Shown here: piece after piece, positions 1 to 39,838 of the stretch
Numbering within the stretch: the stretch's first letter is position 1
Layout of the letters: every line of letters starts with the position of its first letter
IMG/VR virus record: IMGVR_UViG_3300045999_010230
Location: 1 to 46,047 of that record
Direction: 5' to 3' (one strand)
Length of the DNA stretch: 46,047 nucleotides
From: a virus
The notes under the pieces: model-generated
What the model was told of the DNA's origin: nothing
The model's database searches: none
What the model saw: only the letters and a program-made list of their open reading frames with translations
Made by a program: the position numbers and the translations under genes

Positions 1-300
1 TCAGCCCTCTACCACGGGCGCGGGCTCGTCGGCCACGGGGGGCGCGTCGGGCACGATCTCGACGATGGTCAGGCCGAGCTGCTGCGCGGTGTAGGTGTAG
101 AGGTAATCGTCGTCGGTGCCCCACTGCGAATAGGCGTCGCCAGTGAGGTTGACCGTGCCGGTCGTGAGGTTCGCGCGCTGCGCGTCCTGGAGCCACCACT
201 GGTAGCTCGCGCTCGTGCCGGGCTGCACGTTGACGTTGTTGATCCACAGCACGGTGGCCGTGGACGGGAAGACGGTTACGGGTTCGATGGTTGCGAACAT
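1..300 (-). CDS. Small fibre-associated protein, copy 1
   Basis: A 99-residue protein encoded 9 bp downstream of the tail-fibre stop. It starts MFATIEPVTVF and is polar, with a Trp-Trp pair (YQWWLQDAQ). The C-terminus is rich in Pro, Ala and Val. I do not recognise the family. Its position directly after the fibre gene suggests a fibre accessory or chaperone-like role, which is inference. Its first 67 codons are identical to the protein at 38763-39176, but the C-terminal part differs (AQQLG here, ATALG there) and is shorter. The stop codon lies exactly at base 1 of the window. Confidence 0.75.
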   Translation of the reverse strand: MFATIEPVTVFPSTATVLWINNVNVQPGTSASYQWWLQDAQRANLTTGTVNLTGDAYSQWGTDDDYLYTYTAQQLGLTIVEIVPDAPPVADEPAPVVEG

Positions 301-962
301 GGGGGATCCTTACACGGAGAATTGCCAAGTGATGCGAGCGAGCGTCGAGCTTGCGACGGTCGGCAGGTATACGGTGGACCCGGATTGCGCGCCCACGCCG
401 CTATTTCCGCCAGAGAAGTTGGTCGGGACAGCCGCCTCGACCGCCGCAGTTGCGGGCGCCGAAACCGTGGTCGTTCCGGCCGTCGAGGAAAACGTTCCAG
501 TTGAGTTCAGCAGCAGTTCGCAAAAAACCATACGGCCCACGCGTGTCCATCGCGCGCTAGTAACGGTTGGCGCAGTTCCGCCAAAGCCTGCGAGAGTCGG
601 CGTCCATGAGCCGTTTTCCTGGTACGCGTCCAACGTCTGCGTGTCCGCGTTGCCCGGCGTCGCGGGGAGCTTGAGGCCCTGTTGCGAGCCCGCGGCTTGA
701 ATCGTCGCGCCGGTGTTGGCGGTGTTGAGAATGACGTTGCCCGAGCTGTCGATGCGCATGCTCTCCAGCGTGCTGCTGGATCGACGGAAGACGATGCTTC
801 CGGCAGAGCCGGAAACGTTGCCGTCGATGTAGAAGTCCGTGCTATTTTGCAGCAGGCGCGTGTGCCCGGACGAGTTCTGCACGAACACTTGGCCGTTGCT
901 TGCGCCGTAGACAGTCAGGCCGCCGGAGACCGGACTCGCCGTGCCGATGCCGACGTTGCCGG
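98..962. repeat. 865-bp exact direct repeat, copy 1
   Basis: This block matches 38974-39838 base for base as far as I can compare by eye (offset 38876). It covers the C-terminal 217 codons of the tail fibre and most of the following small gene. It ends where the fibre N-terminal regions diverge: base 963 differs from 39839. On the other side base 97 differs from 38973. A further short match covers 38-79, after which the ends of the two small genes differ. Because both flanks diverge, this is not a simple terminal overlap of one circular contig. Confidence 0.95.
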
Positions 963-1341
963 CGCCGTCCGCCGTCCATACCGCCGTTTGACCAGTCGTC
1001 GTGCCGTTGGACACGAAGCACACGATGCGATTGCTTGCTGCGCCGCCCGCGGCAAACTGAAAGCCGAAGCCGCTTCGATACAGCGCATCGGCGCTGAACG
1101 TCGCCATCCAGTCCGCCGACGTGGGGACGCCTCCGGAGTTTGGCACCAGGAGCTGAAGCCGCGAGATTGCCGGGTTTGCACCAAGGTTTACGCCGAGGTT
1201 GGAACCCGTCTGCTTGACGATGCTATCCCCCAGCGTCGTCGTGGTCGTTCCCCACACGGGAATGGTGCCCACGGTGCCGGAGCCGCCGACGGGGGTGCCG
1301 CCGGTCGTAGGGCCTGCCGCAAAAAGTTGAGGAGCGCCCAT
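310..1341 (-). CDS. Tail fibre protein, phage A
   Basis: A 343-residue receptor-binding fibre. The start at 1341 overlaps the upstream stop; the reading frame continues further upstream, but only as antisense of the neighbouring gene. The N-terminal 126 residues contain a Gly/Thr-rich stretch (GGSGTVGTIPVW) and LGDSIVKQTGSNLGV, common in phage fibres with a trimeric beta-rich shaft. The conserved NVGIGTASP motif follows, then a tip with the GSWTPTLAGF pattern seen at fibre C-termini. The last 217 residues are identical to those of the fibre at 39186-40310, while the N-terminal anchor is different. That is the usual signature of receptor-binding-tip exchange. Host receptor unknown. Confidence 0.85.
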   Translation of the reverse strand: MGAPQLFAAGPTTGGTPVGGSGTVGTIPVWGTTTTTLGDSIVKQTGSNLGVNLGANPAISRLQLLVPNSGGVPTSADWMATFSADALYRSGFGFQFAAGGAASNRIVCFVSNGTTTGQTAVWTADGAGNVGIGTASPVSGGLTVYGASNGQVFVQNSSGHTRLLQNSTDFYIDGNVSGSAGSIVFRRSSSTLESMRIDSSGNVILNTANTGATIQAAGSQQGLKLPATPGNADTQTLDAYQENGSWTPTLAGFGGTAPTVTSARWTRVGRMVFCELLLNSTGTFSSTAGTTTVSAPATAAVEAAVPTNFSGGNSGVGAQSGSTVYLPTVASSTLARITWQFSV

Positions 1342-1342
1342 G

Positions 1343-1735
1343 TCAGTTCCCCACCACGCGGACGTCGAGCGTCGAGGCAAGCACGCCGATGCAGAGCCCG
1401 GTGCCGTCACGCACGTCGAAACGCTGTGACTGGCCCGGCGGGATCTCCCACGCCGTATCGGCGAGACCCGGCGACGCGCACGTCTGGTTGTCGTAGCCCT
1501 CGATGCCCGCGACGAAGACACTCACGGTGCTCGACGGGTTGCGGATGAGGATGCCCTGCGTGTACGCGCTGTCGAGCGTACGCACATGGTTCGTCGCCGA
1601 GAGGACCACGACCGTGCCTGGGGTCGGCACGACGCTGTCATCCGTGCGCGCGGATTCGAGCTGCCGGAACGTCGGGCTCACTCGCGCGGTATAGGTTCGT
1701 ACTTTGGCCCCAAGGCCTGTGCCGATTCGAGTCAT
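1343..1735 (-). CDS. Small virion protein between ejection proteins and fibre
   Basis: A 130-residue protein starting MTRIGTGLGAKV, preceded by an AAGGAG ribosome binding site. It is predicted mostly beta, with a stretch (IRNPSSTVSVFVAGIEGYD) similar in style to small virion proteins placed next to fibres. Its stop overlaps the fibre start by a few bases. The gene at 40312-40620 holds the equivalent position in the second module and has a comparable feel (values anchored to PGQ and a beta-rich fold), but I see no clear sequence identity. Function unknown; a fibre-attachment or tail-knob accessory role is plausible from position only. Confidence 0.6.
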   Translation of the reverse strand: MTRIGTGLGAKVRTYTARVSPTFRQLESARTDDSVVPTPGTVVVLSATNHVRTLDSAYTQGILIRNPSSTVSVFVAGIEGYDNQTCASPGLADTAWEIPPGQSQRFDVRDGTGLCIGVLASTLDVRVVGN

Positions 1736-1783
1736 GGTCTTTCTCCTTGCCTGTGGTATCCCCGGCCTGTGCCGGCATGAGTC

Positions 1784-4700
1784 TTAGAGCTTCGTGTTCT
1801 CCACGAGCGGTGATTTGGTCGACGGGCGCGTGCGGGCAGCGGCAGCCTCGGAGCCTGGGCGCATCGGCTGCTCACGGGTCGGCGCCATGCCGATGTACTG
1901 CTGGCTCTGGTAGACGCTCATGGTGTAGCCCCGCGCCTTCTTCTTGCCCTTGGTCAGGCCAAAGAGCGGGGCGATCATGAGGTTCGGCTGGTCGCGGTGC
2001 AGGAGCGTGACGACGTTCTGCAGGCGAGAGTACGCCTCGGGCGACAGGCGCTGGATCACCTCGACGTCCTGCTGGCGCAGTGTGCCGTCCTTGATGAAGC
2101 GCAGCACGAGCTCCGGGTTCTTCACGACAGCCACGGAGCGGGCGAACGCATTGGCGTTGGCGCCCGTCATGATGCCTGCCGGCGGACGCTTGCGCTGCAG
2201 GTAGTCCACCATCTCGTCGAACTGCTGACGAGCCGACTGCAGGTTCGCCACGTTGACCTCGGGCGCCGACGCCATGCGGGTCCAGGTCGCGCGGATGGCG
2301 TCGCGGTCATTGATCACCTGGTCGACGAAGTAGTTCGCCTCCTCGGCGGAGAACTTGTACTCGGGCTTCGCCTCGGCCGCGCGAGCCGCAGGGGGAAGCG
2401 CACGCATCGCGCCACGGGCGAACTTGTCGACCATGCCCGTCGCCGCGAGGCCGTTCATGAGGGTCGCCACTGCACGGCCAACCCCTCGGCCGCTCTTCGC
2501 GCCGATGACCGCCCCGAGGATGGTCGTGATGAGGCTGTGGCCGAAGAGAACGTCGAGGGCCTGCGAGCCCACGATGGCGCCAAGCACGGACGGGCTCTCC
2601 GCCGCCGCTTCCTTCACACCCGCCTCGGCCAGCAGCGCCTTGATGCGGCGCCCCTCCTCGGTCTGGTAGAACTTCTTGAGCTGCGCGGCGACGAACTGCT
2701 CGCCCTCGGGGGCGATGAGGCGACCCTCCATGCCGCGGCGAAGCACGCCGCCCTCGCGCTCGATGGCCGCGATGGTGTCGCTGAGCTGCTTCTTCGTGAC
2801 CTGCTGGGCCTCGAGGTCGGCCGCAAGGGTCTGTGCCGCTGCCTTGCGCTCCGTCAGGACGCGGACCTTATCCTTAGCTGCCGCAAGCCGCGTCTCGTTG
2901 CGCACGTTGATCATGCGCTCGTTGAGCTCGGCGAGGGTCGCCCGGCTCTGGGTCGTCTTCCAGAGGTCGTTCGCGCGGTCGACGCGCATGCTGTCGCGAA
3001 GCGCGCGGCTGCTGTCGACGGTCGCCTGAGCATCGGTGCGCACCGCCTTGATGCGCTCGTGAGCATCGCGTTCGGCGGAGAGCTTGCGCGTCGCGGTCTC
3101 GGCTCGGCGACCGGTGCCCTCCGCAGCCTTCTCGAGCTTCGTGATGCGGGCGACGATCTTGGCCTCTTGCGCACCCGCCTCGCGGATGGCGGTCTCGGCC
3201 TCGATGATGGTCCTGTCGAGCTGCTCGGTGGTCACCCGCTCGACCGTGGCCGCCGTGCGCTCTGCTGCCGTCATGGCGGGCGTTGCGGCCTGCGCCTCGA
3301 CCGATGGCAGGGCGGCTTCGAAAGCCGCTCTAGCGGCCTTTGCAGCGTTCGCATCGGCCACCGCGGCGCGGCGCAGGAGCAGGTTGGCGTCGTTGCCAGC
3401 CCGCCTGAAGATTTCGGCAGTGCCCGCCTCACCAAGCTGGTTCACGAGCAGCGCGCGTGCGCGGTCCGCGGCCTTCGAGATGTTGAGGAGCTCGGGCCTC
3501 GTGCCGCCGATGGCGCCCGTGCGCTTGATGAGCCGCGCCTCGGCGCCGCCCGCAGCGGCCCGGTCGACCATGGTGACCATGGTTGCGACGGTTCGGCTCG
3601 GCAGCTTGGCCAGCACGGCCTCGTTGTCGAGCAGCGCGCCGACGACGCTCTTGCGCCCGCCGCCGCCCGCTTCGACGTCCATCACGCGCGCCAGGAATGA
3701 GAACGCGTCGCCTTCCTCGATGCGCGTCGCTTCGATGAGCGCGCCGTTGATGGCGCGATCCGAGGTCGGGCGGATGCCGAGCTCCTTGAGAGCCGCCTCC
3801 TCGAACTCAGCGTTGGTCATCGCGCGAGCGGCATTCTCCGTCGCCGTGCGCTCCGCGGCGCGAGCGTCCTGACCTGCGATGCTGGCCATGGCGTCGACCG
3901 TCGTCTGCGCCTCTTTGCGCACCGCCGCGTCGAGCGTGGCATCGCCGAGCATGGTCGCCATCTCGGAGACGTGCGCAGCCTGAGCGCCGAGCGTCTGGCC
4001 CGCCTGGTCAATCGCCTGCAGGGATGTCTCGGTCTTGCTGATGGACTCATCAAGAGAGGTGACGTCACGACCGGCTGCCGCCTCGGCGTCGCGCTTCGCT
4101 CGCTTCGAGAGGAGCTCCTCGGTCTTGCGCGCGCGCTCCTTGGCTTGCTGCTCGGCGTTCTTGGCCATCTGCCGGCGCGTGGCAGCCATCTCTGTCGCAA
4201 TCGGGTTGATCTGCGACTCGAGCCGGGTGACGTCCTCGGTTGCCGCCGCGAGCGCGTCACCGAGCGTCGTGACGCGCTTGCTGACGGACGCGACTGCGGT
4301 TTCGAGACGACCCGGCTTCACCCCGAGGTCGGTCAGGTTGGTCACGAAGGCGTTGTAGTCGTCCGCCGCCTTGGTCATGCGGGACGCGAGGTCGCGGGCC
4401 TGGTCGGCCTTGGCCATCTCCGTCGCGCGTGCCTCGGTGACTGCCGCCTCTGCGCCCGCTGCCTCGAGCTCCTTGGCCGCCTTCGCTGCCGCGCGGCGTT
4501 CGAGCATGCGTCCGCCCGCGCCGAAGAGCGCCCCAAAGCCGGCACCCACCGTGGCGCCTGCCGCGCCCGCGGTGCCGAGGTTCGCCTGGCGTTCCTCGAT
4601 GGCCGCCTGACTGAGCTCCGAGCCTGCGCCGAAACCAGCGCCGATGGCTGCTTCACGAGCAATGAGACCGCCGAGGCTGCGAGCTCCCGCGCCGAGGCCG

Positions 4701-5137
4701 CCCGTCAGCGCGGTGGCCGGGACGGCGCCCGCGAGCGAGCCAACCGTGATGGCGGTCGGCTGCGCCTGCTCAAGCTGCGCAAGCGTCTCGGGCTCCATGC
4801 CCGCCATGGTCAGGAGCTTGCCAGCGGTGCCGAACGTCGGCAGTTGCGCAGCGCCATACGCGAGGCCCGCGAGGGTACCACCAGGGCCTCCGAAGCGTTC
4901 CTCCGCGGTGCGCTCGAACGTTGCTTCGCTGGTCTCGAGACGCGGCATGGCGCCGTACTGCGCCTGGATGTCCGCGAGGTCGGCGAGCGAGAGCTTGCCG
5001 CCGCCGTCTGCGAGCGTGACCTCCTGCTGAGGGTTCGTCGGCGTGAAGCCGGCGGACATGAGCCGCGCAGCCTGTGCCTGTGGCACCGACAGCGTGCGGC
5101 CTGCAGGGTCACGCAGCGAGACGACGTTCTGCTTCAC
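1784..5137 (-). CDS. Large internal virion (DNA ejection) protein
   Basis: A 1117-residue Ala-rich protein that starts at GTG 5137, overlapping the upstream stop (GTGA). It has long charged helical and coiled-coil stretches (about residues 240-460 and 620-830). Two Gly/Ala-rich hydrophobic segments lie near residues 180-210 and 860-920, and the C-terminus is basic. It is the third of three consecutive internal-protein genes between the nozzle and fibre genes, the position and size of T7 gp16-like ejection proteins. I see no clear lysozyme or transglycosylase motif. By analogy it would leave the capsid at infection and help form a channel across the envelope. Confidence 0.7.
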   Translation of the reverse strand: MKQNVVSLRDPAGRTLSVPQAQAARLMSAGFTPTNPQQEVTLADGGGKLSLADLADIQAQYGAMPRLETSEATFERTAEERFGGPGGTLAGLAYGAAQLPTFGTAGKLLTMAGMEPETLAQLEQAQPTAITVGSLAGAVPATALTGGLGAGARSLGGLIAREAAIGAGFGAGSELSQAAIEERQANLGTAGAAGATVGAGFGALFGAGGRMLERRAAAKAAKELEAAGAEAAVTEARATEMAKADQARDLASRMTKAADDYNAFVTNLTDLGVKPGRLETAVASVSKRVTTLGDALAAATEDVTRLESQINPIATEMAATRRQMAKNAEQQAKERARKTEELLSKRAKRDAEAAAGRDVTSLDESISKTETSLQAIDQAGQTLGAQAAHVSEMATMLGDATLDAAVRKEAQTTVDAMASIAGQDARAAERTATENAARAMTNAEFEEAALKELGIRPTSDRAINGALIEATRIEEGDAFSFLARVMDVEAGGGGRKSVVGALLDNEAVLAKLPSRTVATMVTMVDRAAAGGAEARLIKRTGAIGGTRPELLNISKAADRARALLVNQLGEAGTAEIFRRAGNDANLLLRRAAVADANAAKAARAAFEAALPSVEAQAATPAMTAAERTAATVERVTTEQLDRTIIEAETAIREAGAQEAKIVARITKLEKAAEGTGRRAETATRKLSAERDAHERIKAVRTDAQATVDSSRALRDSMRVDRANDLWKTTQSRATLAELNERMINVRNETRLAAAKDKVRVLTERKAAAQTLAADLEAQQVTKKQLSDTIAAIEREGGVLRRGMEGRLIAPEGEQFVAAQLKKFYQTEEGRRIKALLAEAGVKEAAAESPSVLGAIVGSQALDVLFGHSLITTILGAVIGAKSGRGVGRAVATLMNGLAATGMVDKFARGAMRALPPAARAAEAKPEYKFSAEEANYFVDQVINDRDAIRATWTRMASAPEVNVANLQSARQQFDEMVDYLQRKRPPAGIMTGANANAFARSVAVVKNPELVLRFIKDGTLRQQDVEVIQRLSPEAYSRLQNVVTLLHRDQPNLMIAPLFGLTKGKKKARGYTMSVYQSQQYIGMAPTREQPMRPGSEAAAARTRPSTKSPLVENTKL

Positions 5138-6753
5138 TTGGTCTTCGCCTTCTGGGCCGCGACCGCGCGCGCCGCGGTCTCTGCCCTGGTGAGCTTGTTG
5201 TACTCGTCAAGCGCCATGAGCGGCACGCCGAGGCTCTGCTGCATGAGGTTGTACATGATGGGGTTCGACCGCTGCGACTCGATGAGGGTCGAGCTCATGC
5301 GGCGCTCCTTGGCCACCTGGTCGTTGACGTAGGTGTTGAACGCGTCGTAGCTCAGAAGAGCGTTCTTCAGCGTGTCGCGCGCGAGCTCGTTGTTCGTGAC
5401 GGCGCCGCCCGAGACGACGCGGAGGTCTTGGTTGATGACACCCTGAACGGCGCCGGCAATCTTGCGCTCCTCGTCGGTTGTGGCGCGCTTGAGCACCTCG
5501 CGGTTGATGGCGTCCGACAGCACCGTGAACGCGGTCGCATCGTTGAGGTTCTTTGCCATGTTGCTCTGCAAAATCTGGTTGACCGCAGGAGCAACGGAGC
5601 TGTCCCAGAACTTGCGGATCTGGTCGGGGCGAGCCGCGCCGGCGAGGCGGTTCACGAGCGTGCTGACGGCGTTGAGCTTGTCGATTGCCGCGGCGTTGCC
5701 CTTCACGAAGGCGGGGTAAGCCTTGCGAGCTTCCTCGTACATCTTCGGGTCTGCCTGTGCGCCCGCGCGGATGCCGTCGAGCAGCTTCATGCGCATGTCC
5801 TGCACCGCGCGGAACTGCGCCGCAGCAGCCGCCGCGTTCTTCTCGTCGATGCGCATCTGCAGGTCGCCCTGCTGCGCCTTGAGGTTGCCCGAGGCTTCGG
5901 TAAGGGCTGCGCGTGACTTGGCGTCGCCGACGCGCTGGGCTGCGAAGTCGAGGGCGCGCGAGTACTGGTCGAGCGCAGCGCCTGCGGAAAGTGCGAGAGC
6001 TTGCTGCTCGTCGGCGCCCATCTGGCGAGCGTCGAGGAAGTTGTTCCGGCGCACCGTCTGACCCTGGAGCATGCGCTCGTACTGGGTCTTCTGGTTCATG
6101 ATGTCCCGCTCGACAGCCTTGTCGACCTCTTGCAGGATCTCGTTGGGGCCCGCGCGACCAGCGGCGCCCTTGAGCATGCCCACGAGGCCAGCGGAGAACG
6201 AGAGGATCGCCGTGTCGACGGGGCGGCTACCGAGGTCGCGAAGGAGGCGCGAGGCGTCGAACGAGTCCTGCGCCTTGCGCATGGCCGCTTCGTCCTCGGC
6301 CATGGCCACTTTGCGCGCATCGAAGAGCTGCCGCTGCTGACCCTGCAGGACCGCGAGGTCGTCGCGGTACTTCTGCGCCGCCGCCTCGGCCTGGTTCATG
6401 ATGTCGGCGCGGCGCGTCGTCTCGCGCTCCATGACCGGCACGACGCTCTCGATGGCCTGCCCGCGCAGCCGGAAGCCTTCCTTCTGGAGCTCGTTCATGC
6501 CGATGGGGCGCCGGCCACCGCCAGTCAGCCCCATGATCTTCATGCGCTCGTCGACCATCGCGAGCTGCTTGCGCAGGAGGTCGTTCTCAGACGCCTGCTG
6601 CTGCTCGAGCGTCATCTGCGGCGCAGGCGCTTGCTCCGCAGCGGGTGCAGGCAGAACCTCTGGCGCCGCCTCCACGGGAGGAAGCTCCTTCTCGGGCTCG
6701 GCGAAGTAGTTCGCGAGGTAGTCGTACGGATCGCGGGACGGCTCAAAATCCAT
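5134..6753 (-). CDS. Internal virion protein, helical
   Basis: A 539-residue protein, acidic and Pro-rich at the N-terminus (residues 1-50). Long alpha-helical, Gln/Ala/Arg-rich coiled-coil segments follow through most of its length, and it ends in a basic Ala/Lys tail. It sits between the 365- and 1117-residue internal proteins, so it corresponds by position to the middle ejection protein (T7 gp15-like). No catalytic motif seen. The stop overlaps the next start. Confidence 0.65.
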   Translation of the reverse strand: MDFEPSRDPYDYLANYFAEPEKELPPVEAAPEVLPAPAAEQAPAPQMTLEQQQASENDLLRKQLAMVDERMKIMGLTGGGRRPIGMNELQKEGFRLRGQAIESVVPVMERETTRRADIMNQAEAAAQKYRDDLAVLQGQQRQLFDARKVAMAEDEAAMRKAQDSFDASRLLRDLGSRPVDTAILSFSAGLVGMLKGAAGRAGPNEILQEVDKAVERDIMNQKTQYERMLQGQTVRRNNFLDARQMGADEQQALALSAGAALDQYSRALDFAAQRVGDAKSRAALTEASGNLKAQQGDLQMRIDEKNAAAAAAQFRAVQDMRMKLLDGIRAGAQADPKMYEEARKAYPAFVKGNAAAIDKLNAVSTLVNRLAGAARPDQIRKFWDSSVAPAVNQILQSNMAKNLNDATAFTVLSDAINREVLKRATTDEERKIAGAVQGVINQDLRVVSGGAVTNNELARDTLKNALLSYDAFNTYVNDQVAKERRMSSTLIESQRSNPIMYNLMQQSLGVPLMALDEYNKLTRAETAARAVAAQKAKTK

Positions 6754-6763
6754 GGCGGCCTCC

Positions 6764-7861
6764 TCAGTCGATCTCGAAGTCGATGCGACGAGCCTTGCGT
6801 GCCTTCGGAGCTGTGACCGCCTTGCGGCGCGTCGGCATCACCGGCATCGGCGCCTTCGGGACGGAGCCGCGGCGGTTGAAGATCTCGCGCATGGCGGAGC
6901 CTTCGTCGCTCAGCCCAGCCATGGCCGGCATGGTGCGCGTCATGGCGATGGGGCTCGGAGTCATGTGCGGGCCCTGCGCGGCGCCGAGCGTCGTCATGCC
7001 GGTGAGCGTACCTTCGGGGCGGGTCTCCACGAACGGACGAGGGCCTGCGAGGTTGGGCGTCGGGACGAACGACGGGGTCGCTGCGTACTGAGCCGCGAGT
7101 GACTGGCCCGCAGCCTGAATGGGGGCCTGCACCTGCGCGAGGCTTTGCACGGGGCCGCGCGTTTCACCGACATCACGCACCGATGGACCACCGATCACTG
7201 TCTCCGGCATCGTGACGACACCTGGCGCCTGGCGTTCACTGGCGATGACCGTCTCAGGCATGTTCACGACGCCGGCAGCCGCGCCAGCGTCTGACGCTGC
7301 GAGGCTCTGGCCAGGAGCGTTGGTCTGCGATCCGCCCATGCGCACGCGACCACCAGTCTTCTTCTTGCCTCCCTCGCCAGGAATCAGGGTGCGGCCCGCG
7401 AGGCCGAGTACGCCCTCGGCAAAGCCAGCAAGCTCGTCACGCTTGCGCTGCGCCTCTCGGCCAGCGACGTCCGCGAGCGCCATCTGGCCCGCTGCCACGC
7501 CACGACGGGCACGCTCCTGCTCTACCGCACGGAGCTCGGCGAGCTGCGAGGCATACCGCGCCTGCACGTCGGCACCCTGGCGCATTGCCTCGCGACGCAT
7601 GCCCGCCTGCTGCTGCGCCGTGCCACGAGCCGCCTGCGACTCCAGGTCCGAGATGGCTCGACCGCGGGCGTAGGCGAGCCCCGCCTGCCCCTGCGTCGTG
7701 CCGCCCTCGGCCACGCGCATGTAGGGAGCCATCGCGTCGAGGATGCGCTGGCGCTCCTCCTCCTCGGCGCTTTTCACGCCGAATGCACTGCCAAGCGCAC
7801 GGCTTACGAACGGAGTCGCCGCGTTAACCGCGAGCGTTGCAGCAGTGATTGGATCGGCCAT
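6764..7861 (-). CDS. Internal virion protein A-like
   Basis: A 365-residue protein. The N-terminus (MADPITAATLAVNAATPFV) is a mildly hydrophobic helix, as in small podovirus internal virion proteins. An amphipathic Ala/Arg/Gln-rich helical region follows to about residue 150. A low-complexity Pro/Gly/Thr region with repeated MPETVI-A motifs (GVVNMPETVIASE, GVVTMPETVIGGP) comes next, and a short basic tail ends it. It is the first gene after the nozzle-like protein, matching the first ejection protein. Assignment rests on order and composition, not on a catalytic motif. Confidence 0.6.
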   Translation of the reverse strand: MADPITAATLAVNAATPFVSRALGSAFGVKSAEEEERQRILDAMAPYMRVAEGGTTQGQAGLAYARGRAISDLESQAARGTAQQQAGMRREAMRQGADVQARYASQLAELRAVEQERARRGVAAGQMALADVAGREAQRKRDELAGFAEGVLGLAGRTLIPGEGGKKKTGGRVRMGGSQTNAPGQSLAASDAGAAAGVVNMPETVIASERQAPGVVTMPETVIGGPSVRDVGETRGPVQSLAQVQAPIQAAGQSLAAQYAATPSFVPTPNLAGPRPFVETRPEGTLTGMTTLGAAQGPHMTPSPIAMTRTMPAMAGLSDEGSAMREIFNRRGSVPKAPMPVMPTRRKAVTAPKARKARRIDFEID

Positions 7862-7869
7862 GACTACTC

Positions 7870-26882: not shown

Positions 26883-26962
26883 CCGTGCTCGCTTGTCGCG
26901 TCATGCTCGCGACCACGTCGCCTGCATGCCGCGCCAATTCCGGCGCTCGATTGGAGGTAACC

Positions 26963-27954: not shown

Positions 27955-27966
27955 CGACCTGCGCAT

Positions 27967-28035: not shown

Positions 28036-28052
28036 AGAAAGGAGCTGCCATC

Positions 28053-28950: not shown

Positions 28951-28988
28951 CTAACCCGAACCGCGCCGAGTGGCGCTTAGGAGGAATG

Positions 28989-31489: not shown

Positions 31490-31893
31490 CCACGCACCGC
31501 GAACTTGCCGCTCGCGCGGTGGCCTGCAAGCACTGGCGCTTCTTGCCTGGCATGCGCATCGCCGGCCACAACACCGCGGGCCGGCCGGCAAGCATGCGTC
31601 TGCTCGACATTCCCGGCTCCGCGTGGCCCGAGTTCTGGGTTGCGGAAACCCGTAACGCCGAGGAGGTTCGTTTCCTTACCGGCGTTCGCGACTCCGCGTT
31701 CCTTCCGGACCTGACCGACGCATGCACACTTGGCGGTGTGCTCGATCTTGTTCGCTCTACGTCGAAGACCGCAAACCCGAGTGCGGTCTGCAACGTACGT
31801 AGCGAGTGGTACATGAACCCGTGGCATACCGCGTTTCCACACGCCTCCACTGAGGCTGAGTGCCTCGTACTTGCACTGGAGATGGCGCAATGA
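31486..31893 (+). CDS. HWR-PDL family protein, paralogue of 22407-22712
   Basis: A 135-residue protein with C-KHWRFLPGM and LPDLTDACTLGGVLDLVR, matching motifs of the minus-strand protein at 22407-22712. It has an additional central segment and ends in an ALEMA helix like its paralogue. It is wedged between the annealing protein and nuclease genes with ATGA overlaps on both sides, so it is co-expressed with them. Function unknown. Confidence 0.65.
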   Translation: MTTHRELAARAVACKHWRFLPGMRIAGHNTAGRPASMRLLDIPGSAWPEFWVAETRNAEEVRFLTGVRDSAFLPDLTDACTLGGVLDLVRSTSKTANPSAVCNVRSEWYMNPWHTAFPHASTEAECLVLALEMAQ

Positions 31894-32645
31894 ACCTGCC
31901 CGTCCTGTCCGCGAGCCGGTCCGACCTGCTCGCCTGCGAGCTTGCCACGAGGCTGCCCTGGGATGAGGCTCCCGCTGGTCCGGCGGCGCAGGTAGGCACC
32001 CGCTTCCACGAGCTCGTGGAAGGCGCCATCAAGGCGCGGGAATGGGTGCCCCTCGACCCGCTCGACGCCGCCTTCGAGGTGCCGCTGCGTGCGGCGCTTG
32101 AGTGGTTCACCTCTACCGCTGCCCCCGACAGCGGCGAGGTCCTGCTTGAGCAGGCCTACGAGCTCAAGCCCCTCGGCGGGTACACGCACGAGCCAGGTCG
32201 GCGCGAGCCCCACTGGCGCGATACCATGACCTGCACGGTCCTGCCGAAGCGGGGCCACCGCGAGTATCCTCGCGACCCCTCGGCGTTCTACGGCACCGCC
32301 GACGTCGTCCTACTCGACGGCCGAGGTGGCGCCCACGTATGCGACTGGAAGACCGGCCGCCGCTCTGACGGCCACCGCGCCCAGCTCCTGAGCCTCGCGC
32401 TCATGGTCGCCGAGGCGCACAAGGTCGACCGCGTGCAAGCGACCGCCGTCTACGTCGACCTCAAGACGGGCAAGGTGAAGACCGAGTCCTTCGTCGTCGA
32501 CAGCTTCGACCTCCACGTTCACGCTGGTCTGCTCGTGCGCATCTTCAAGAGCCGCGTGGTGGCTGGCGCCATGCCCGACCCGGTCCCCGGGAAGTACTGT
32601 TTTTTCTGCCCCGCAGTGGGCTGCCCTGAGAAACTCCGAAAGTGA
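31890..32645 (+). CDS. Cas4/RecB-like nuclease with Fe-S cysteine pattern
   Basis: A 251-residue PD-(D/E)XK nuclease. H40-E41 (RFHELVE), D138 (YGTADVV), D152-x-K154 (CDWKTG) and Q165 in the following helix (RAQLLSLAL) form the active-site order of RecB/Cas4 nucleases. C16 plus C237, C240 and C245 (CFFCPAVGC) match the one-plus-three cysteine layout of Cas4/AddB-type 4Fe-4S clusters. It follows the annealing protein candidate and should resect DNA ends for it. Confidence 0.85.
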   Translation: MNLPVLSASRSDLLACELATRLPWDEAPAGPAAQVGTRFHELVEGAIKAREWVPLDPLDAAFEVPLRAALEWFTSTAAPDSGEVLLEQAYELKPLGGYTHEPGRREPHWRDTMTCTVLPKRGHREYPRDPSAFYGTADVVLLDGRGGAHVCDWKTGRRSDGHRAQLLSLALMVAEAHKVDRVQATAVYVDLKTGKVKTESFVVDSFDLHVHAGLLVRIFKSRVVAGAMPDPVPGKYCFFCPAVGCPEKLRK

Positions 32646-33094
32646 TGACCATGAACGAAGACATCCGCCGCCTTGAGCAAAAGATCGACGAAGTCCTCAA
32701 GCTCCTCAAGGACATGCCCACCGGGACGAAGCCCGGCGGCTTCTCCCTCAAGACCGTGAGCGACAGCGACCTCGACGGGAAGTACGGCAACCCCGAGGTG
32801 CGCATGGTTCCCTCGAAGTGGACCGGCCAGGACTACAAGGGCTGGAAGTTCAGCGACTGCCCGGCCGAGTTCCTCGACGAGCTCGCGGGCATGCTCGAGG
32901 CCATCGCTCGCAAGCAAGCGCAGGACCCCGTCAAGGCGAAGTACGCCGACTGGTCGGCGAAGGACGCCGCCCGCGCCCGCGCCTGGGCCGAGCGCCACCG
33001 CAAGAACGGCGGCCCCGCCAAGGCCGCGCCCATGCCCGACGACTGGAACGACACCATCGGCGGCGACACCGGCAGCGACGCATTCCCCTTCTGA
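32642..33094 (+). CDS. Conserved phage replication-associated protein with SSB-like tail
   Basis: A 150-residue frame from GTG 32642; ATG 32645 or 32651 are alternatives because no clear ribosome site decides. It has a short coiled coil (RRLEQKIDEVLKLLKD), then the conserved stretch VPSKWTGQDYKGWKFSDCP and FLDELAGMLEAIA, an Ala/Arg helix, and an acidic end DWNDTIGGDTGSDAFPF. The final D-FPF resembles the SSB C-terminal tail that recruits replication proteins. I see no OB fold, so an SSB itself is not proven. Confidence 0.6.
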   Translation: MMTMNEDIRRLEQKIDEVLKLLKDMPTGTKPGGFSLKTVSDSDLDGKYGNPEVRMVPSKWTGQDYKGWKFSDCPAEFLDELAGMLEAIARKQAQDPVKAKYADWSAKDAARARAWAERHRKNGGPAKAAPMPDDWNDTIGGDTGSDAFPF

Positions 33095-33107
33095 CCTGGA
33101 GAAAACC

Positions 33108-33302
33108 ATGAAGACCATCGCAGCAATCGCCATCGCCCTCATGCTCGCGAGCCGCACCGAAGCGGCGCCCGAGCAGCCCGAGCCCACCGCCGGTCGGTGC
33201 ATGGGGTACCCGCCCTTCTGCCCGTACGGCCAGGCCCCGCTCTGCGTCTGCCAGGACGACTACAGCTACAACTGCATCTGGATGTGCGCGAGCACCCGCT
33301 GA
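33108..33302 (+). CDS. Secreted six-cysteine miniprotein
   Basis: A 64-residue protein with a good start (GGAG at 33098-33101, ATG 33108). Residues 1-19 are a Sec-type signal peptide (MKTIAAIAIALMLASRTEA, cleavage likely before A20). The mature part is Pro-rich with six cysteines at 31, 38, 46, 48, 56 and 60 (C-x6-C-x7-C-x-C-x7-C-x3-C), a disulfide-stabilised small-domain pattern. Nothing in the early operon explains it. A periplasmic or surface role such as superinfection exclusion or inhibition of a host envelope factor is a speculation. Confidence 0.7.
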   Translation: MKTIAAIAIALMLASRTEAAPEQPEPTAGRCMGYPPFCPYGQAPLCVCQDDYSYNCIWMCASTR

Positions 33303-33312
33303 AACAACGAGA

Positions 33313-33353
33313 CCGCTGGTAGGCGCCCTTCCCGCGTGACGTCCTACCGGCGG
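33313..33353 (+). promoter_or_regulatory. 11-bp stem hairpin in spacer
   Basis: CCGCTGGTAGG (33313-33323) and CCTACCGGCGG (33343-33353) pair across a 19-base loop with one wobble. It lies 10 bp after the miniprotein stop. No T-run, so a transcript-end or processing hairpin, or an operator, rather than a classical terminator. Confidence 0.55.
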
Positions 33354-33390
33354 CTCTCGCCCCCTCGCAACAGTACGAAGGACCACCATC

Positions 33391-33696
33391 ATGCCATCGA
33401 AGAACGTTCAGATCCACATCGTCATCAGCACCGACACCCGCATGGCGACGCGCGCCTACGGCCGCGACGAGAAGGGGTGGTACTGCGAGATGAGCACGTC
33501 CGAGCACTGCGATGGCGCCCCCGTGACCGAGCACGAGACCGAGCCCTTCGACTTGTCCTGCACCGACCACGCGGTGGCCGACGCCCTCATGGCGGTGCAT
33601 GCGGCGTTCGGCGTCATGCTCGAGCCCGGGGAGCGGCTGCCCAACCTCGTGCCCGTCGAGCTCAAGGCGCCGACCCAGGGCTCGACACTGAACTGA
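33391..33696 (+). CDS. Hypothetical protein, 101 aa
   Basis: ATG 33391 with GAAGGA upstream. Small alpha/beta protein (MPSKNVQIHIVISTDT; CEMSTSEHCDGAPVTEHETE) with a helical C-terminal half. No motif recognised. A 129-bp spacer with two inverted repeats follows it. Confidence 0.55.
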   Translation: MPSKNVQIHIVISTDTRMATRAYGRDEKGWYCEMSTSEHCDGAPVTEHETEPFDLSCTDHAVADALMAVHAAFGVMLEPGERLPNLVPVELKAPTQGSTLN

Positions 33697-33717
33697 ACCC
33701 GTGGCAGAAAAGGTTTG

Positions 33718-33744
33718 CCCCCGGTCGTTGCAAGCGACCGAGGG
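33718..33744. promoter_or_regulatory. Inverted repeat in initiator leader
   Basis: CCC-C-CGGTCG, 7-base loop TTGCAAG, CGACCG-A-GGG. Nine base pairs with one internal mismatch. It lies 22 bp after the upstream gene and about 80 bp before the replication initiator gene. It could be a hairpin in the leader of the initiator mRNA. Confidence 0.45.
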
Positions 33745-33797
33745 CGGATATCGTTCAGGGCGAAGAGAAGACTAGCGCGGGCTTGTCCGCCTGTCGA

Positions 33798-33825
33798 GAT
33801 CTTCGCCACAGCCTCGGTGAAGATC
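33798..33825 (+). promoter_or_regulatory. Inverted repeat touching the initiator start codon
   Basis: GATCTTC (33798-33804) pairs with GAAGATC (33819-33825), with CC/GG extending the stem around one internal mismatch. The right arm ends at the base before ATG 33826, so it covers the ribosome-binding region (GGTGAAG). A folded mRNA would hide the start, suggesting translational control of the replication initiator. Confidence 0.5.
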
Positions 33826-34542
33826 ATGGCCCAGTGGTACAAGCAATACACGAGCGAGCTGGCCTCGCTCGAAACGCTGCTGCGATGCGGCAGGCAAGAC
33901 GTCATCACGGCGTGGTTCCGCGTCGTGCGGCACGCCGTCGAGCGCGAGGCCGACGAAGTGCCAGAGTCGATGCGAGGTGACCTTGAGCTTCTCGCGGAGT
34001 TCGGGTTCGCGGTCTCGTTCGGCGAGCGATGCAAGGACCTCGTTGACCAGCGCGAGGCAACCAAGCGGTGGCGGTCCACTCGCTCAGCAACATCACGTGA
34101 TATCACACAAGGTCACGTGGCATCACGTGGTACCACAGAATCTCACGAGATCTCAGGTGATATCCTAGAAGAGAAGAGAATAGAGAAGAGGGAGAAGAGA
34201 GAGAGTAAGCCGCGCGCTGAGCGCACGGCCAAGCCCTCTCTGGAGACCTGGTTTCCGAATGACGCACATCGAGAGCTCGCAAAGGCACAGGGCGTCGACT
34301 GTGACCGAGAGGCCGCGAAGATGCGCGACTACCTTCTGGCCAGCGGCAAGCGGTACAAGGACAACGATGCTGGCTTCCGCAACTGGCTGAGTCGCGCGAG
34401 ACCTGAGCCCGTAGGCCGCCCGACGCTCGTGAGGCCCAACCTCTCGAACAACCTGCTGCAGACTGACCACCCCGATGGAGCCGGCGAGGAGTACTGGCTC
34501 AAGGGCATCGAGAAGTACAAGTATGGAGGAACAAGTGGATGA
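33826..34542 (+). CDS. Replication initiator (O-like)
   Basis: A 238-residue protein; ATG 33826 is chosen because the frame upstream lies in the non-coding leader. The N-terminal part is helical. Residues 89-128 are encoded by a decamer array and purine tract and are low complexity (SRDITQGHVA and SRGTTESHEI in a 10-residue period). The C-terminal region has SLETWFPNDAHRE and later YLLASGKRYKDNDAGFRNWL, the pattern of phage replication proteins with a DnaT-like C-terminal domain that load host helicase. A DnaC-like gene overlaps the end, as in lambda O and P-type modules. Confidence 0.75.
   Translation: MAQWYKQYTSELASLETLLRCGRQDVITAWFRVVRHAVEREADEVPESMRGDLELLAEFGFAVSFGERCKDLVDQREATKRWRSTRSATSRDITQGHVASRGTTESHEISGDILEEKRIEKREKRESKPRAERTAKPSLETWFPNDAHRELAKAQGVDCDREAAKMRDYLLASGKRYKDNDAGFRNWLSRARPEPVGRPTLVRPNLSNNLLQTDHPDGAGEEYWLKGIEKYKYGGTSG
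34091..34205. other. Probable replication origin inside initiator gene
   Basis: From 34091 to 34160 seven decamers follow each other without a gap. Their bases 4-9 read CACGTG, CACACA, CACGTG, CACGTG, CACAGA, CACGAG, CAGGTG, so the consensus is NNTCACGTGR once per 10 bp, near one helical turn. An eighth, weak unit spans 34161-34170. Next, 34167-34205 is 39 bases of purine with one T (34181). This layout, iterons followed by an asymmetric purine-rich tract inside the initiator gene, is analogous to lambda ori within O. The periodicity is seen; the origin function is inference. Confidence 0.65.
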
Positions 34543-35215
34543 CTTGGCAACCCTGATCGCCCAGACCATGGAGGCGACGCAGAAGCTCCAAGAGCTTCAC
34601 ACCCGCAAGCACGAGACCGTCGCCAAGGGCGAGCTCGCCCAGAAGCAGCTCACCGTCGAGGACGCGGTCCACAAGTTCCGCTTCATCCCCGAGCGGTTCC
34701 GCGCTGTCGTCACCACCATGCTCAGCAACGGCGTCCCGCGCGCCATCGCCGACCTGACCCCAGCCCTCGACCAGACCGGCGTGTCGGTTCCCTTCCTGAC
34801 CCTCGTCGGCAAGAGCGGCGCAGGCAAGACCTCGACGGCTCTTGCCATCCCAGTCGCCCGGTACCTCATGGCCTACATGAAGCACGGCCCCGTGAACATC
34901 GACCAGCGCCTGCTGTCCTGGCGCTTCCTGCACGCCGACGACATCTGCACCGCGCGCAAGACCTCGAAGCTCGGCGAGGAGCCAGCCGAGCTCCGCAAGG
35001 CCATGAGCTGGAACCCGCTGATCATCGACGACGTGATCGGTCAGAAGGACATCGACGGCGATCTCTACCGCGTCATCCGGTACCGCGAAGAGAACGGCTA
35101 CCAGACGATCATCACGACTGGCATGCTGTCGTCAGCCGTCGAGACCGCCTATGGTCCTCAGTTCTCCCGACGCATGTTCTCGGGCGTCACCAAGATCATC
35201 GAGAGGAAGACCTGA
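34535..35215 (+). CDS. DnaC-like helicase loader ATPase
   Basis: A 226-residue AAA+ protein. GTG 34535 is preferred because GGAGGA (34525-34530) lies 4 bp before it; ATG 34523 is the alternative and includes that site. Numbered from ATG 34523, Walker A GKSGAGKTS lies at 96-104, Walker B LIIDD at 166-170, and IITTG near 196-200 may hold sensor 1. The N-terminal 60 residues are charged and helical and may contact the helicase or the initiator. It probably loads a host DnaB-type helicase, since no phage helicase or polymerase is visible in the window. Confidence 0.8.
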   Translation: MDDLATLIAQTMEATQKLQELHTRKHETVAKGELAQKQLTVEDAVHKFRFIPERFRAVVTTMLSNGVPRAIADLTPALDQTGVSVPFLTLVGKSGAGKTSTALAIPVARYLMAYMKHGPVNIDQRLLSWRFLHADDICTARKTSKLGEEPAELRKAMSWNPLIIDDVIGQKDIDGDLYRVIRYREENGYQTIITTGMLSSAVETAYGPQFSRRMFSGVTKIIERKT

Positions 35216-35223
35216 AAAGAAGA

Positions 35224-35245
35224 CGGGCCGCGCGAACGCGACCCG
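35224..35245. repeat. Stem-loop after loader gene
   Basis: CGGG-C-CGCG, tetraloop CGAA, CGCG-A-CCCG: eight pairs with one mismatch. It lies 9 bp after the helicase-loader stop and in the 97-bp gap before the next gene. No T-run follows, so it is not a clear intrinsic terminator. Nothing else is seen in the gap apart from a GGAGGG and the ribosome binding site of the next gene. Confidence 0.4.
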
Positions 35246-35312
35246 CCTGAGCCCAGAGAATGGAGGGAATCTGTGCCTGGGCCTGGTATACATAGAAGAC
35301 CTGGAGGTATCA

Positions 35313-35666
35313 ATGGGAGCCATCAAGAAAGCATTCAGCCTCAAGGCTGCTCACAAGGACCCGAAGGGCGGGCTCACCGCCGCCGGTCGCGCGGCCTACA
35401 ACCGCGCCACAGGGTCGAAGCTCAAGCCCGGTGTCCGAGGCCCGGCAAGCACACCCGAATTGCTGCGCCGTAAAGGGTCCTTCCTGGCCCGAATGTTCTC
35501 GAACCCTACCGGAGGGGCTCTGAAGCGTGGAAAGCCCACCAGGAGGGCGCTGAGCGCCGCTGCGTGGGGTGAGCCCGTTCCGAGGACGACGGGCGGCATG
35601 CTCGCCCTGGCTGCCAAGGGTCGGCGCATGCTCGACCGCTACAAGGCGATCAAGAAGAATGGCTAG
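35313..35666 (+). CDS. DUF6321-like conserved phage protein
   Basis: A 117-residue basic protein; GGAGG at 35303-35307, ATG 35313. It contains KDPKGGLTAAGRAAYNRATG and KPGV-GPA, and a following RRKGSFLARM segment, which match my memory of the DUF6321 family. Many phage members lie near packaging and replication genes; function unknown. Very basic throughout, so DNA or RNA contact is likely. Overlaps the next gene by 8 bp. Confidence 0.65.
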   Translation: MGAIKKAFSLKAAHKDPKGGLTAAGRAAYNRATGSKLKPGVRGPASTPELLRRKGSFLARMFSNPTGGALKRGKPTRRALSAAAWGEPVPRTTGGMLALAAKGRRMLDRYKAIKKNG

Positions 35667-36183
35667 GAAGAAAGCTATCGCCCAGTCGGTGGCGGCCACG
35701 AAGGCGGCGCAGGTTGGCAAGCTCGACCGTCCGCTCCTGCCGGCCAAGACCAGTCAGCAGGACATCGCCATCGAGGCCGTGGCCAAGCTCATGTACTCGG
35801 GCCAGTGGGACTCGGACGCCCGCGAGGCGACGCTCAAGGAGCTCGGCTGCTCGCTCGAGTCCATGAACCGCTACGAGCGCGAAGCTCAGCGCCTCGTGCG
35901 CATGAGCATGCGGCACTCCGGCAAGGCCTTCGAGCGCCTCGCCGGCGTTCTCAACGAGGTCATCGACCGCAGCCTGCAGGAGAACGACCTGCGCACCACG
36001 GTCATGGCCGCCGGCAAGCTCGCTGACATCACCGGCCTGAACAAGCAGGTCATCGAGCACCGCGAGGGAGACAAGCTCGAAGAGTTCCGCCGCCGCGCCA
36101 TGGCCGGCGAGGACGTCGAGCAGCTTGCGAAGGAGGCCACCGAGTTCCTCCTTGGCATCGAGTCGGGCATCATGTATCAGTAA
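35659..36183 (+). CDS. HTH-containing protein, candidate small terminase
   Basis: A 174-residue protein beginning MARKKAIAQSVAATKAAQ. The middle reads like a helix-turn-helix (WDSDAREATLKELGCSLES), then helices LVRMSMRHSGKAFERL and TTVMAAGKLADITGLNK, a layout common in small terminases. No other TerS is found next to TerL, so this is the best candidate in the window, but it is on the opposite strand from TerL and could be another DNA-binding protein. Confidence 0.5.
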   Translation: MARKKAIAQSVAATKAAQVGKLDRPLLPAKTSQQDIAIEAVAKLMYSGQWDSDAREATLKELGCSLESMNRYEREAQRLVRMSMRHSGKAFERLAGVLNEVIDRSLQENDLRTTVMAAGKLADITGLNKQVIEHREGDKLEEFRRRAMAGEDVEQLAKEATEFLLGIESGIMYQ

Positions 36184-37086: not shown

Positions 37087-37692
37087 CTAGAGCATGACGA
37101 CGGTGGGAAGGACGACGTTCGTGAGCTCACGCGTGTAGCGTCGCGAGATGCTGTTCACGATGCGGGAGTATTCCTCCTCGCTGGCGGTGAAGTAGCCGCC
37201 GCGCTTGAGCTCGCGCACGTAGCCGGTGGCGTCACCCACCTTGGCGCGCTCGAGCGCCTTCGGGTAGCGCCGGAAGAGCAGCCCCAGGTGCGCCTCGGCG
37301 GCCTCGTCGAGCGTCTCCCAGGAGGCGAAGCAGTTCATCCGCTGCTTGCCCGAGTAGCGCAGGGTCATGGTGCCGTTCGGGTTCGTCCGCACGAGCGTCA
37401 CCTCGGAGCCAGGCTTCGAGGAGGCGAGCTCCGATTGCGCTCGGGCTGTGGGCCAGGTCTCGGTCGTCGTGAAGTAGCACCAGTCGTAGTCTCCGTGCCT
37501 CTTCGCGCCGCCGAGGTTGAAGTTCATGATGGCCTTCCAATGGCCAGTCTCCAGGGCGCTCTGGGCGTGGAGGATGTGGAGAACCTTGCGGTCTGGGGGA
37601 GCGCCTGTGAGCAACTGCCACGCGGTCCCCAGAGCCAGGAATACTTGCTCGGGAGTCACGGGCGTGCGCTTAGCAGGACGCTCCTGGCCCAT
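37087..37692 (-). CDS. Endolysin, GH73/FlgJ-like glucosaminidase
   Basis: A 201-residue protein; ATG 37692 overlaps the upstream stop (TGATG). The catalytic glutamate is probably E48 in HAQSALETGHW, followed by NFNLGG, the signature of GH73/FlgJ muramidases. The C-terminal half has CFASWETLDEAAEAH and ARAKVGD-like text with Tyr-rich ends and may bind cell wall. No signal peptide is seen, so release likely needs a holin. It sits in a lysis cassette with a spanin-like lipoprotein. Confidence 0.8.
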   Translation of the reverse strand: MGQERPAKRTPVTPEQVFLALGTAWQLLTGAPPDRKVLHILHAQSALETGHWKAIMNFNLGGAKRHGDYDWCYFTTTETWPTARAQSELASSKPGSEVTLVRTNPNGTMTLRYSGKQRMNCFASWETLDEAAEAHLGLLFRRYPKALERAKVGDATGYVRELKRGGYFTASEEEYSRIVNSISRRYTRELTNVVLPTVVML

Positions 37693-37862
37693 CAATCCTC
37701 CGTGCCTTCGAGCGCCTGGAGCTTCCGCAGCTTCTCCTCAGCCGCGCTCGGCCCGGCGAGGATGACCTTCGCCGAGGGCACGTTCGCGTAGATGAAGTCG
37801 AGAACGTAGGGGTAGTGGTGCTTGAGAAGCTCGAACACCGCCAGGATCTCTGCCTCGGTCAC
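37692..37862 (-). CDS. Small lysis-cassette protein, 56 aa
   Basis: GTG start at 37862 overlaps the upstream stop (GTGA). Begins VTEAEILAVFELLKHHYPY, with a hydrophobic helix (YVLDFIYANVPSAKVIL) and an acidic end. It sits between endolysin and lipoprotein genes. No known family; possibly an inner-membrane-associated partner. Confidence 0.5.
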   Translation of the reverse strand: MTEAEILAVFELLKHHYPYVLDFIYANVPSAKVILAGPSAAEEKLRKLQALEGTED

Positions 37863-38104
37863 GGCCCCTCCAGCTTGATGAGCACGGTCTTCACCTCGCC
37901 GTAGACCTGCACGCAACCTTCAAGTTCTACTTGAGAGTTCGACTCCTTGGCGCACCGCTCGTCCGCCTCCTTGAGCGCCTGGGCGAGGTAGCGGACCGCT
38001 CGCTGCGCGGGCGGCAGAGGAGCCTGCGTAGGCCAACGCGGACCACAGCAGCCAGCAAGCGAGCCAGCAAGAACCAGAAGGACAGCCCCTGTCGCATGAC
38101 GCAT
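37859..38104 (-). CDS. Lipoprotein, o-spanin candidate
   Basis: An 81-residue protein. Residues 1-19 are a lipoprotein signal peptide ending in the lipobox LAGC (C19), followed by C20 and a Pro-rich start, then a charged helix (LAQALKEADERCAKESN). Small lipoproteins in lysis cassettes act as outer-membrane spanins in many Gram-negative phages. An i-spanin partner with one N-terminal membrane helix may be the neighbour at 38104-38322 or 38322-38579. TGATG overlap with upstream gene. Confidence 0.6.
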   Translation of the reverse strand: MRHATGAVLLVLAGSLAGCCGPRWPTQAPLPPAQRAVRYLAQALKEADERCAKESNSQVELEGCVQVYGEVKTVLIKLEGP

Positions 38105-38322
38105 CACGACTTGCCTCCAGCGGTGAACTCCGCGATGGACGAGACCATCTTCACCGGGTCGAGCCCGGTCGCACGGAGGAACCGAGTGAACGCCGCGAGG
38201 CGTGGGTGGCGCTCGCAACGCTCGACCCACTCCTCGGGCGTACGGGTGCGCAGGATGATGTTCAAGAGGCCGGTGATGGCCGGCCAAATGAACACCGCCC
38301 ACAGCTCCACCTTGTCGTGCAT
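38104..38322 (-). CDS. Single-pass membrane protein, holin candidate
   Basis: A 72-residue protein starting at ATG 38322 (TGATG). Residues 6-23 (ELWAVFIWPAITGLLNII) form a membrane helix. The rest is Arg-rich with PEEWVERCERHPRLAAF, and a weakly hydrophobic C-terminus. The position in the lysis cassette supports a holin or i-spanin-like role; which of the two is not decidable here. Confidence 0.55.
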   Translation of the reverse strand: MHDKVELWAVFIWPAITGLLNIILRTRTPEEWVERCERHPRLAAFTRFLRATGLDPVKMVSSIAEFTAGGKS

Positions 38323-38579
38323 CACGGCTTCCCCAAGAGGTGGTGGAACTTGCTCTCTACGGCCCACAAGAAGCCGGTGATGATGACGCCCCAGACGACG
38401 TTCATGAACTTCTTGGTGCCGCGTTCGGCTTCCAGTCTGAGCTTGCGCCCAAACTGAAGGTCCTCGCGGAAGCTGTTGACGCTCTCGATGCTGTCGATGT
38501 CGACGCCGAGCAAGAAGAACGTCTCGCGAACGGCCTTCTCGGCTGCCTCTTCGGCGACGGACTTCGTGCTCGGCGCCAT
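38322..38579 (-). CDS. DUF6127-like membrane protein, holin candidate
   Basis: An 85-residue protein with a charged N-terminal half (KSVAEEAAEKAVRETFFLLG, then FGRKLRLEAERGTKK) and one membrane helix near residues 58-76 (FMNVVWGVIITGFLWAVES). This arrangement is known from phage proteins of the DUF6127 type (recalled). It is placed between a fibre-associated gene and other lysis genes, so a holin role is plausible. Confidence 0.55.
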   Translation of the reverse strand: MAPSTKSVAEEAAEKAVRETFFLLGVDIDSIESVNSFREDLQFGRKLRLEAERGTKKFMNVVWGVIITGFLWAVESKFHHLLGKP

Positions 38580-38581
38580 GG

Positions 38582-38770
38582 TCAGGCCTGCGCCTGCGCA
38601 GCCTCGGTCACCACGGGGGCAACCTGCTGCGGCGGGTTGAGCTTCAGACCGTTCGACACGACCTGGAGCGACTCGTTGATCGCGACGGCTTCGTGCAGTT
38701 CGAGAAGGCCAGCCTTTTGGGCACGCATCACGATCAGCACGAGGTTCTTGAACGCTTGCTCTTCATTCAT
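38582..38770 (-). CDS. Small protein before lysis cassette, 62 aa
   Basis: ATG 38770 with a GGAGGA site upstream (38776-38781). MNEEQAFKNLVLIVMRAQK start, two helices and a Pro/Ala-rich end (NPPQQVAPVV). It overlaps the upstream fibre-associated gene by 8 bp. Family not recognised. Confidence 0.5.
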   Translation of the reverse strand: MNEEQAFKNLVLIVMRAQKAGLLELHEAVAINESLQVVSNGLKLNPPQQVAPVVTEAAQAQA

Positions 38771-39176
38771 CGGTTCCTCCATCCACCGCAGGTGCGGCTT
38801 CATCGGAAGGTGCCACGACGGGAGCGGGCTCGTCAACAGGAGCGGGCTCCACTACCACGGGCGCGGTCTCCACTACCACGGGCTCCGGCGTCGACTCGGG
38901 AGCGGGCGGAGCAGGGGGCGCGTCGGGCACGATCTCGACGATGGTCAGGCCGAGCGCGGTCGCGGTGTAGGTATAGAGGTAATCGTCGTCGGTGCCCCAC
39001 TGCGAATAGGCGTCGCCAGTGAGGTTGACCGTGCCGGTCGTGAGGTTCGCGCGCTGCGCGTCCTGGAGCCACCACTGGTAGCTCGCGCTCGTGCCGGGCT
39101 GCACGTTGACGTTGTTGATCCACAGCACGGTGGCCGTGGACGGGAAGACGGTTACGGGTTCGATGGTTGCGAACAT
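38763..39176 (-). CDS. Small fibre-associated protein, copy 2
   Basis: A 137-residue protein. Its first 67 codons are identical to the protein at 1-300 because they lie in the 865-bp repeat. It then has a longer Pro/Val/Glu/Ala-rich tail with four PxxVVxxAP-type repeats (EPVVVETAPVVVEPAP). Both copies follow a tail fibre by 9 bp. The tail difference shows these are separate alleles and not a sequencing duplicate of one gene end. Function unknown. Confidence 0.75.
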   Translation of the reverse strand: MFATIEPVTVFPSTATVLWINNVNVQPGTSASYQWWLQDAQRANLTTGTVNLTGDAYSQWGTDDDYLYTYTATALGLTIVEIVPDAPPAPPAPESTPEPVVVETAPVVVEPAPVDEPAPVVAPSDEAAPAVDGGTDE

Positions 39177-39838
39177 GGGGGATCCTTACACGGAGAATTG
39201 CCAAGTGATGCGAGCGAGCGTCGAGCTTGCGACGGTCGGCAGGTATACGGTGGACCCGGATTGCGCGCCCACGCCGCTATTTCCGCCAGAGAAGTTGGTC
39301 GGGACAGCCGCCTCGACCGCCGCAGTTGCGGGCGCCGAAACCGTGGTCGTTCCGGCCGTCGAGGAAAACGTTCCAGTTGAGTTCAGCAGCAGTTCGCAAA
39401 AAACCATACGGCCCACGCGTGTCCATCGCGCGCTAGTAACGGTTGGCGCAGTTCCGCCAAAGCCTGCGAGAGTCGGCGTCCATGAGCCGTTTTCCTGGTA
39501 CGCGTCCAACGTCTGCGTGTCCGCGTTGCCCGGCGTCGCGGGGAGCTTGAGGCCCTGTTGCGAGCCCGCGGCTTGAATCGTCGCGCCGGTGTTGGCGGTG
39601 TTGAGAATGACGTTGCCCGAGCTGTCGATGCGCATGCTCTCCAGCGTGCTGCTGGATCGACGGAAGACGATGCTTCCGGCAGAGCCGGAAACGTTGCCGT
39701 CGATGTAGAAGTCCGTGCTATTTTGCAGCAGGCGCGTGTGCCCGGACGAGTTCTGCACGAACACTTGGCCGTTGCTTGCGCCGTAGACAGTCAGGCCGCC
39801 GGAGACCGGACTCGCCGTGCCGATGCCGACGTTGCCGG
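38974..39838. repeat. 865-bp exact direct repeat, copy 2
   Basis: This is the second copy of the block at 98-962. Here it joins the lysis cassette on one side (below 38974) to the P22-like fibre and head module on the other (above 39838). Identity without a visible mismatch implies very recent exchange, or one sequence placed twice by assembly. Confidence 0.95.

Follow-up and report, generated by a model that had tools for sequence, protein, structure and literature searches.

Chimeric metagenome contigs at repeats common to mosaic phages have been discussed previously (PMC10563150), and the DNA analysed here, the whole 46,047-nucleotide stretch of an IMG/VR virus record (IMGVR_UViG_3300045999_010230; hereafter the window), resembles them in that one repeat links sequences of different phages within a contig. 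Unlike in those chimeras, the insertion at the repeat appears to comprise a whole circular phage, and relatives together with exact k-length overlaps allow the correct pairing to be recovered. Distantly related Alteromonas phages have a fibre and chaperone module in common (PMC10579305), and the present case is similar insofar as a fibre and the gene next to it are common to phages otherwise unrelated in genes. However, the sharing in Alteromonas phages is described as probably ancient, whereas here up to 865 bases agree at 100%; moreover, only the fibre 3' end and part of the next gene are involved, and the small protein encoded by that gene carries no chaperone assignment, as judged from its sequence and predicted model. 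Fragment exchange across taxonomic borders is most pronounced in receptor-binding proteins, among others (PMC10684548). Protein fragments are likewise exchanged across such borders here, but the exchanged unit spans a gene boundary, with its downstream edge at a near-constant place in the small gene. Set beside these systems, the join in the window is very probably an artefact, and the shared tip or cassette adds a new instance to the receptor-binding mosaicism already described (PMC10579305, PMC10684548).

The repeat and the two phages it joins

The path of the contig can be written x-R-A-R-y, where R is the repeat, A is the larger phage (region 963-38973), and the outer segments x and y are assigned to B, a P22-like phage. 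The features are as follows:

1..97, minus strand: x, the 3' end of a 99-codon small gene (1-300), B version; the contig begins at its stop codon
98..962, minus strand: R copy 1, comprising the fibre 3' part (tip) and the small-gene 5' part; identical to 38974-39838, with tip relatives in A and B contigs
963..1347, minus strand: A fibre gene, N-terminal part; frame about 310-1347, open through R
1784..25264, minus strand: A late genes, including putative ejection proteins, a nozzle-like 1689-aa protein, capsid, portal, TerL and a PAPS-reductase-like gene
26885..36183, plus strand: A early genes, including PHROG exonuclease-family, PD-(D/E)XK nuclease, DnaC-like loader and others; order kept in A relatives
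37087..38836, minus strand: A lysis cassette and small ORFs; 61-73% in A relatives versus 37-42% in B relatives
37087..37695, minus strand: glucosaminidase-type endolysin (PF01832)
38763..39176, minus strand: A small gene, 137 aa, partly within R; homologues lie between fibre and lysis genes in A contigs
38974..39838, minus strand: R copy 2, assigned by its identity with R copy 1
39839..40310, minus strand: B fibre gene, N-terminal part; whole frame 39186-40310, the first 98-102 bases being 94-97% identical to B contigs
40312..46047, minus strand: B P22-like block of tail genes, Ad3 adaptor, coat, scaffold and truncated portal; PHROG E-values 1e-34 to 9e-83

Self-comparison of the window bore out the predicted 865-bp identical block: 98-962 and 38974-39838 match on the same strand at 865/865 bases, and the match cannot be extended by even one base to the left or right. 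Within each copy, ~650 bases come from the fibre 3' part, and the rest is the 5' part of the small gene downstream. The further claim that all four flanks differ stands, but the two small-gene flanks turned out to be homologous. The right edge is sharp and falls inside the fibre gene at the codons for a GNVGIGTASP motif, whereas the left edge is graded, as one and the same small gene occupies the flank in both places: positions 38-97 and 38914-38973 agree at 54/60 bases, and similarity is gone beyond them. Apart from R, the only window repeat at E 1e-3 is a 49-base match at 86% (1252-1300 and 40233-40281) in the fibre N-terminal linker. Searches of 50,697 phage records with the R DNA, the A portal and the small protein returned no match.

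Re-pairing the flanks across R yields exactly 38,876 bp, as originally predicted, and the fibre and small-gene frames are open over both new joins. The predicted layout was also recovered, with minus-strand late genes below ~25.3 kb, plus-strand early genes at ~26-37 kb and minus-strand lysis genes from 37.1 kb. Of the genes attributed to A, TerL, capsid and a portal-like gene are present, and gene order together with weak profile matches is the only basis for naming a scaffold, an adaptor, a nozzle and three ejection proteins. Several late genes share 94-99% protein identity with 3300035670_001246; the capsid matches Pfam SU10_MCP (1.9e-10), and TerL has only three matches among the 50,697 phage records, with identity of at most 25%. 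The tail may be of podovirus type, on adaptor and nozzle names taken from gene order and weak matches. Phage A is apparently a complete 38,876-bp circular map and probably a podophage. Its PAPS-reductase-like gene lies at 24383-25264 (PF01507, 6.7e-26).

The remainder had been described as a fragment of a P22-like phage, and P22-type coat, scaffold, portal and Ad3 adaptor genes are indeed present in order (PHROG matches 283, 648, 156 and 637, at 1e-34 to 9e-83). The coat protein shows 97-99% identity to 9 IMG/VR contigs and about 30-49% to P22-coat phages. The portal is cut by the contig end at the right edge of the window, its profile match beginning at residue 255 of 681. By sequence, B is a P22-like phage, of which ~6.2 kb are present here. 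The last 60 bases of the window match no IMG/VR contig, so the portal side of B could not be extended, and a genome-collection search with the coat gave only 40-49% matches, in three bacterial records, so that no host can be named.

The short left stub x is present at 100% over its 97 bases in another contig, L154 (IMG/VR 3300045999_001333), and the last 127 bases of L154 are exactly positions 1-127 of the window, end to end. Beyond this overlap, L154 carries 10 kb of the same tail genes as B relatives (69-98% protein identity for the first gene); the stub therefore belongs to B. The C-terminus encoded by x, VADEPAPVVEG, also occurs in B contig L133, and EPAPVVEG in L145. Adjoining contigs of a k=127 de Bruijn assembly show a 127-base end-to-end overlap, and the overlap observed here suggests that the window and L154 are neighbouring contigs of one such assembly; a search for the value of k in publications on the assembler's use found none. 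Tetranucleotide composition places B closest to L154 (r 0.95-0.96), with A segments almost equal (0.88-0.95), and is not decisive.

Flank pairing in relatives and the origin of the join

When fetched loci were classified by structural gene set, 57 belonged to A, 92 to B, and 0 carried both. A relatives present the order ejection gene, fibre, small gene, short ORFs, endolysin and then converging early genes, and the full order is found on single contigs (e.g., 3300009158_000009 and 3300007734_000663). B relatives carry portal, scaffold, coat, tail genes, fibre and small gene in this order, and B-type tail genes come next; their endolysin is a different one (37-42% identity) and lies ~11 kb farther on (e.g., 3300035703_000248 and 3300016484_000240). 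The proposed partner swap agrees with both orders, as relatives join the A fibre to the A lysis cassette, and the B fibre through x to B tail genes. Lineages upstream and downstream of the small gene were then tabulated for 34 public contigs, hand-collapsed to those with markers on either side, giving 10 A-A, 23 B-B, 1 A-B and 0 B-A (Fisher p 8e-8, a guide only, since the contigs are related). In the given order, neither copy of R in the window is concordant (the left is A-B, the right B-A); after the swap they become A-A and B-B.

The sole A-B contig, L139 (10001-11435), runs from A-type ejection genes via the small gene to a B-type tail gene that is 92-96% identical to L079/L074, and it may be a real hybrid or another junction chimera.

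A-family relatives of the same gene order close as circles of 37.2-38.9 kb by end overlaps, against 38,876 bp for the re-paired window. An exact 127-base end repeat turns G006 (38,124 bp) into a 37,997-bp circle, an exact 123-base repeat turns G005 (37,342 bp) into a 37,219-bp circle, and G019 (38,895 bp), whose 126-base end repeat starts one base in, gives a circle of about 38,769 bp. Neither G005 nor G006 has its fibre-small-lysis join near a contig end; in both it is internal. Leaving out overlapping slices of one contig, the exact end overlaps in fetched loci other than L154 and the window are circle closures (127 bases in G006, 123 in G005).

The original prediction had left the choice between a recombinant and an assembly chimera open, and the 127-base end overlaps together with the concordance table favour the latter. 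An exact repeat lies at both joins, the contig combines two structural gene sets that are unrelated, and relatives contradict the given pairing and support the swapped one. We consider it very probable that two phages of the same metagenome were fused into the window during assembly and that the predicted swap is correct. A and B would each carry the same 865-base R through recent natural exchange, and R would exceed the short-read insert length. In the assembly graph, A would form a loop leaving and re-entering R; the walk would come in from B's x edge, pass through R, A and R again, and go out by B's y edge, thereby inserting A into B.

Circular A DNA might alternatively have joined B by one recombination at R, leaving x-R-A-R-y physically in one molecule. 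Such a cointegrate would have the same topology as the contig, and R offers 865 bases of perfect homology, but the molecule would have a portal and a coat gene from each phage, and its length would exceed what one ~40-kb head can take if B is the size of its relatives' contigs (33-35 kb). Given also that 0 fetched relatives carry both gene sets and that A relatives close as independent circles, this origin is very unlikely. A reciprocal natural recombination, combining A head genes with B tail genes and B head genes with the A lysis cassette, finds a parallel in L139 and in the fact that fibre modules do travel between the A and B groups. Nevertheless, 33 of the 34 contigs are concordant, B-to-A contigs number 0, and L139 is itself a fragment ending ~1 kb past the junction, which makes this explanation similarly improbable. 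It is barely credible that R is a terminal repeat physically present on phage A DNA, or that the fibre tip is truly duplicated within one genome: some phages do have direct terminal repeats a few hundred bases long (PMC10563150), but R runs from mid-fibre gene to mid-small gene, both belonging to an operon that closed relatives show uninterrupted, and unique DNA of another phage lies beyond both copies.

If the window is an assembly chimera, the record is unfit for use as a single genome: it would introduce a spurious phage carrying two sets of head genes, and gene-sharing networks would be distorted by it. Once re-paired, the record provides one phage of 38,876 bp that is apparently complete, along with part of another. 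At fibre tips common to unrelated phages, short-read assemblers could pass from one genome into the other, and such cases should recur.

Two further A-type contigs show irregularities of their own. The end of G010 (L190, L191; 41,960 bp) is an exact 127-bp copy of the contig's bases 2932-3058, implying a second lollipop, with a 38,902-bp circle and a 2.9-kb tail bearing another fibre and small gene, and thus a similar case in one relative. G008 (L182, L183; 38,852 bp), also an A relative, breaks in the fibre region and has a 22-bp end repeat; the fibre tip may therefore break assemblies elsewhere too.

Exchange of the fibre tip and small gene between groups

Sharing of the fibre tip extends to A and B contigs of other samples, where the common unit is the fibre 3' end and the 5' part of the small gene. 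Exact A-B runs across samples reach 449 bases (L138/L143) and 445 bases (L140/L142). DNA shared between A and B at 88% or more near the small gene is limited to ~1.75 kb upstream and 1.5 kb downstream, and sharing peaks within the gene's first 250 bases. All matches running into the small gene (45/45) end 250-325 bases past its start, with 35 beginning near the gene start and 10 about 400-500 bases upstream in the fibre gene, match ends also depending on where similarity fades. The cross-sample exact runs and the confinement of sharing therefore indicate that tip exchange between the groups is natural, and we infer from R a recent case of it.

On balance, we lean slightly towards the view that A and the P22-like B, whose head genes are unrelated, keep a common pool of receptor-binding cassettes swapped as one unit, each cassette being defined as the fibre 3' end and the first ~85-100 codons of the next gene. 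Swapping could proceed by homologous recombination, in which the conserved stretch of the small gene would act as a shared landing site. If this is true, host range moves between virus groups as one unit, and cassette exchange makes the transfer of host-range genes from one virus group to an unrelated one open to testing.

Structure prediction was applied to both parts of the unit. The fibre tip model is confident only near the C-terminus, and its fold search returned non-significant matches only, some of which are phage receptor-binding heads; from its position at the fibre end, the tip is presumably a receptor-binding head. No fold or sequence of a known tail-fibre chaperone was recognised in the small protein: its model, confident over residues 1-90, matches nothing in the PDB at E<=1e-3, and no Pfam chaperone domain was detected. 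At the same threshold, BFVD holds six matches to the small protein, all of them uncharacterised phage proteins. Across the family (window 38763-39176 and homologues), variable N-terminal parts and proline-rich C-terminal parts surround a conserved GDAYAAWGTDDDYLYTYTA..LGLTI segment, and the family's ends are mixed between A and B phages.
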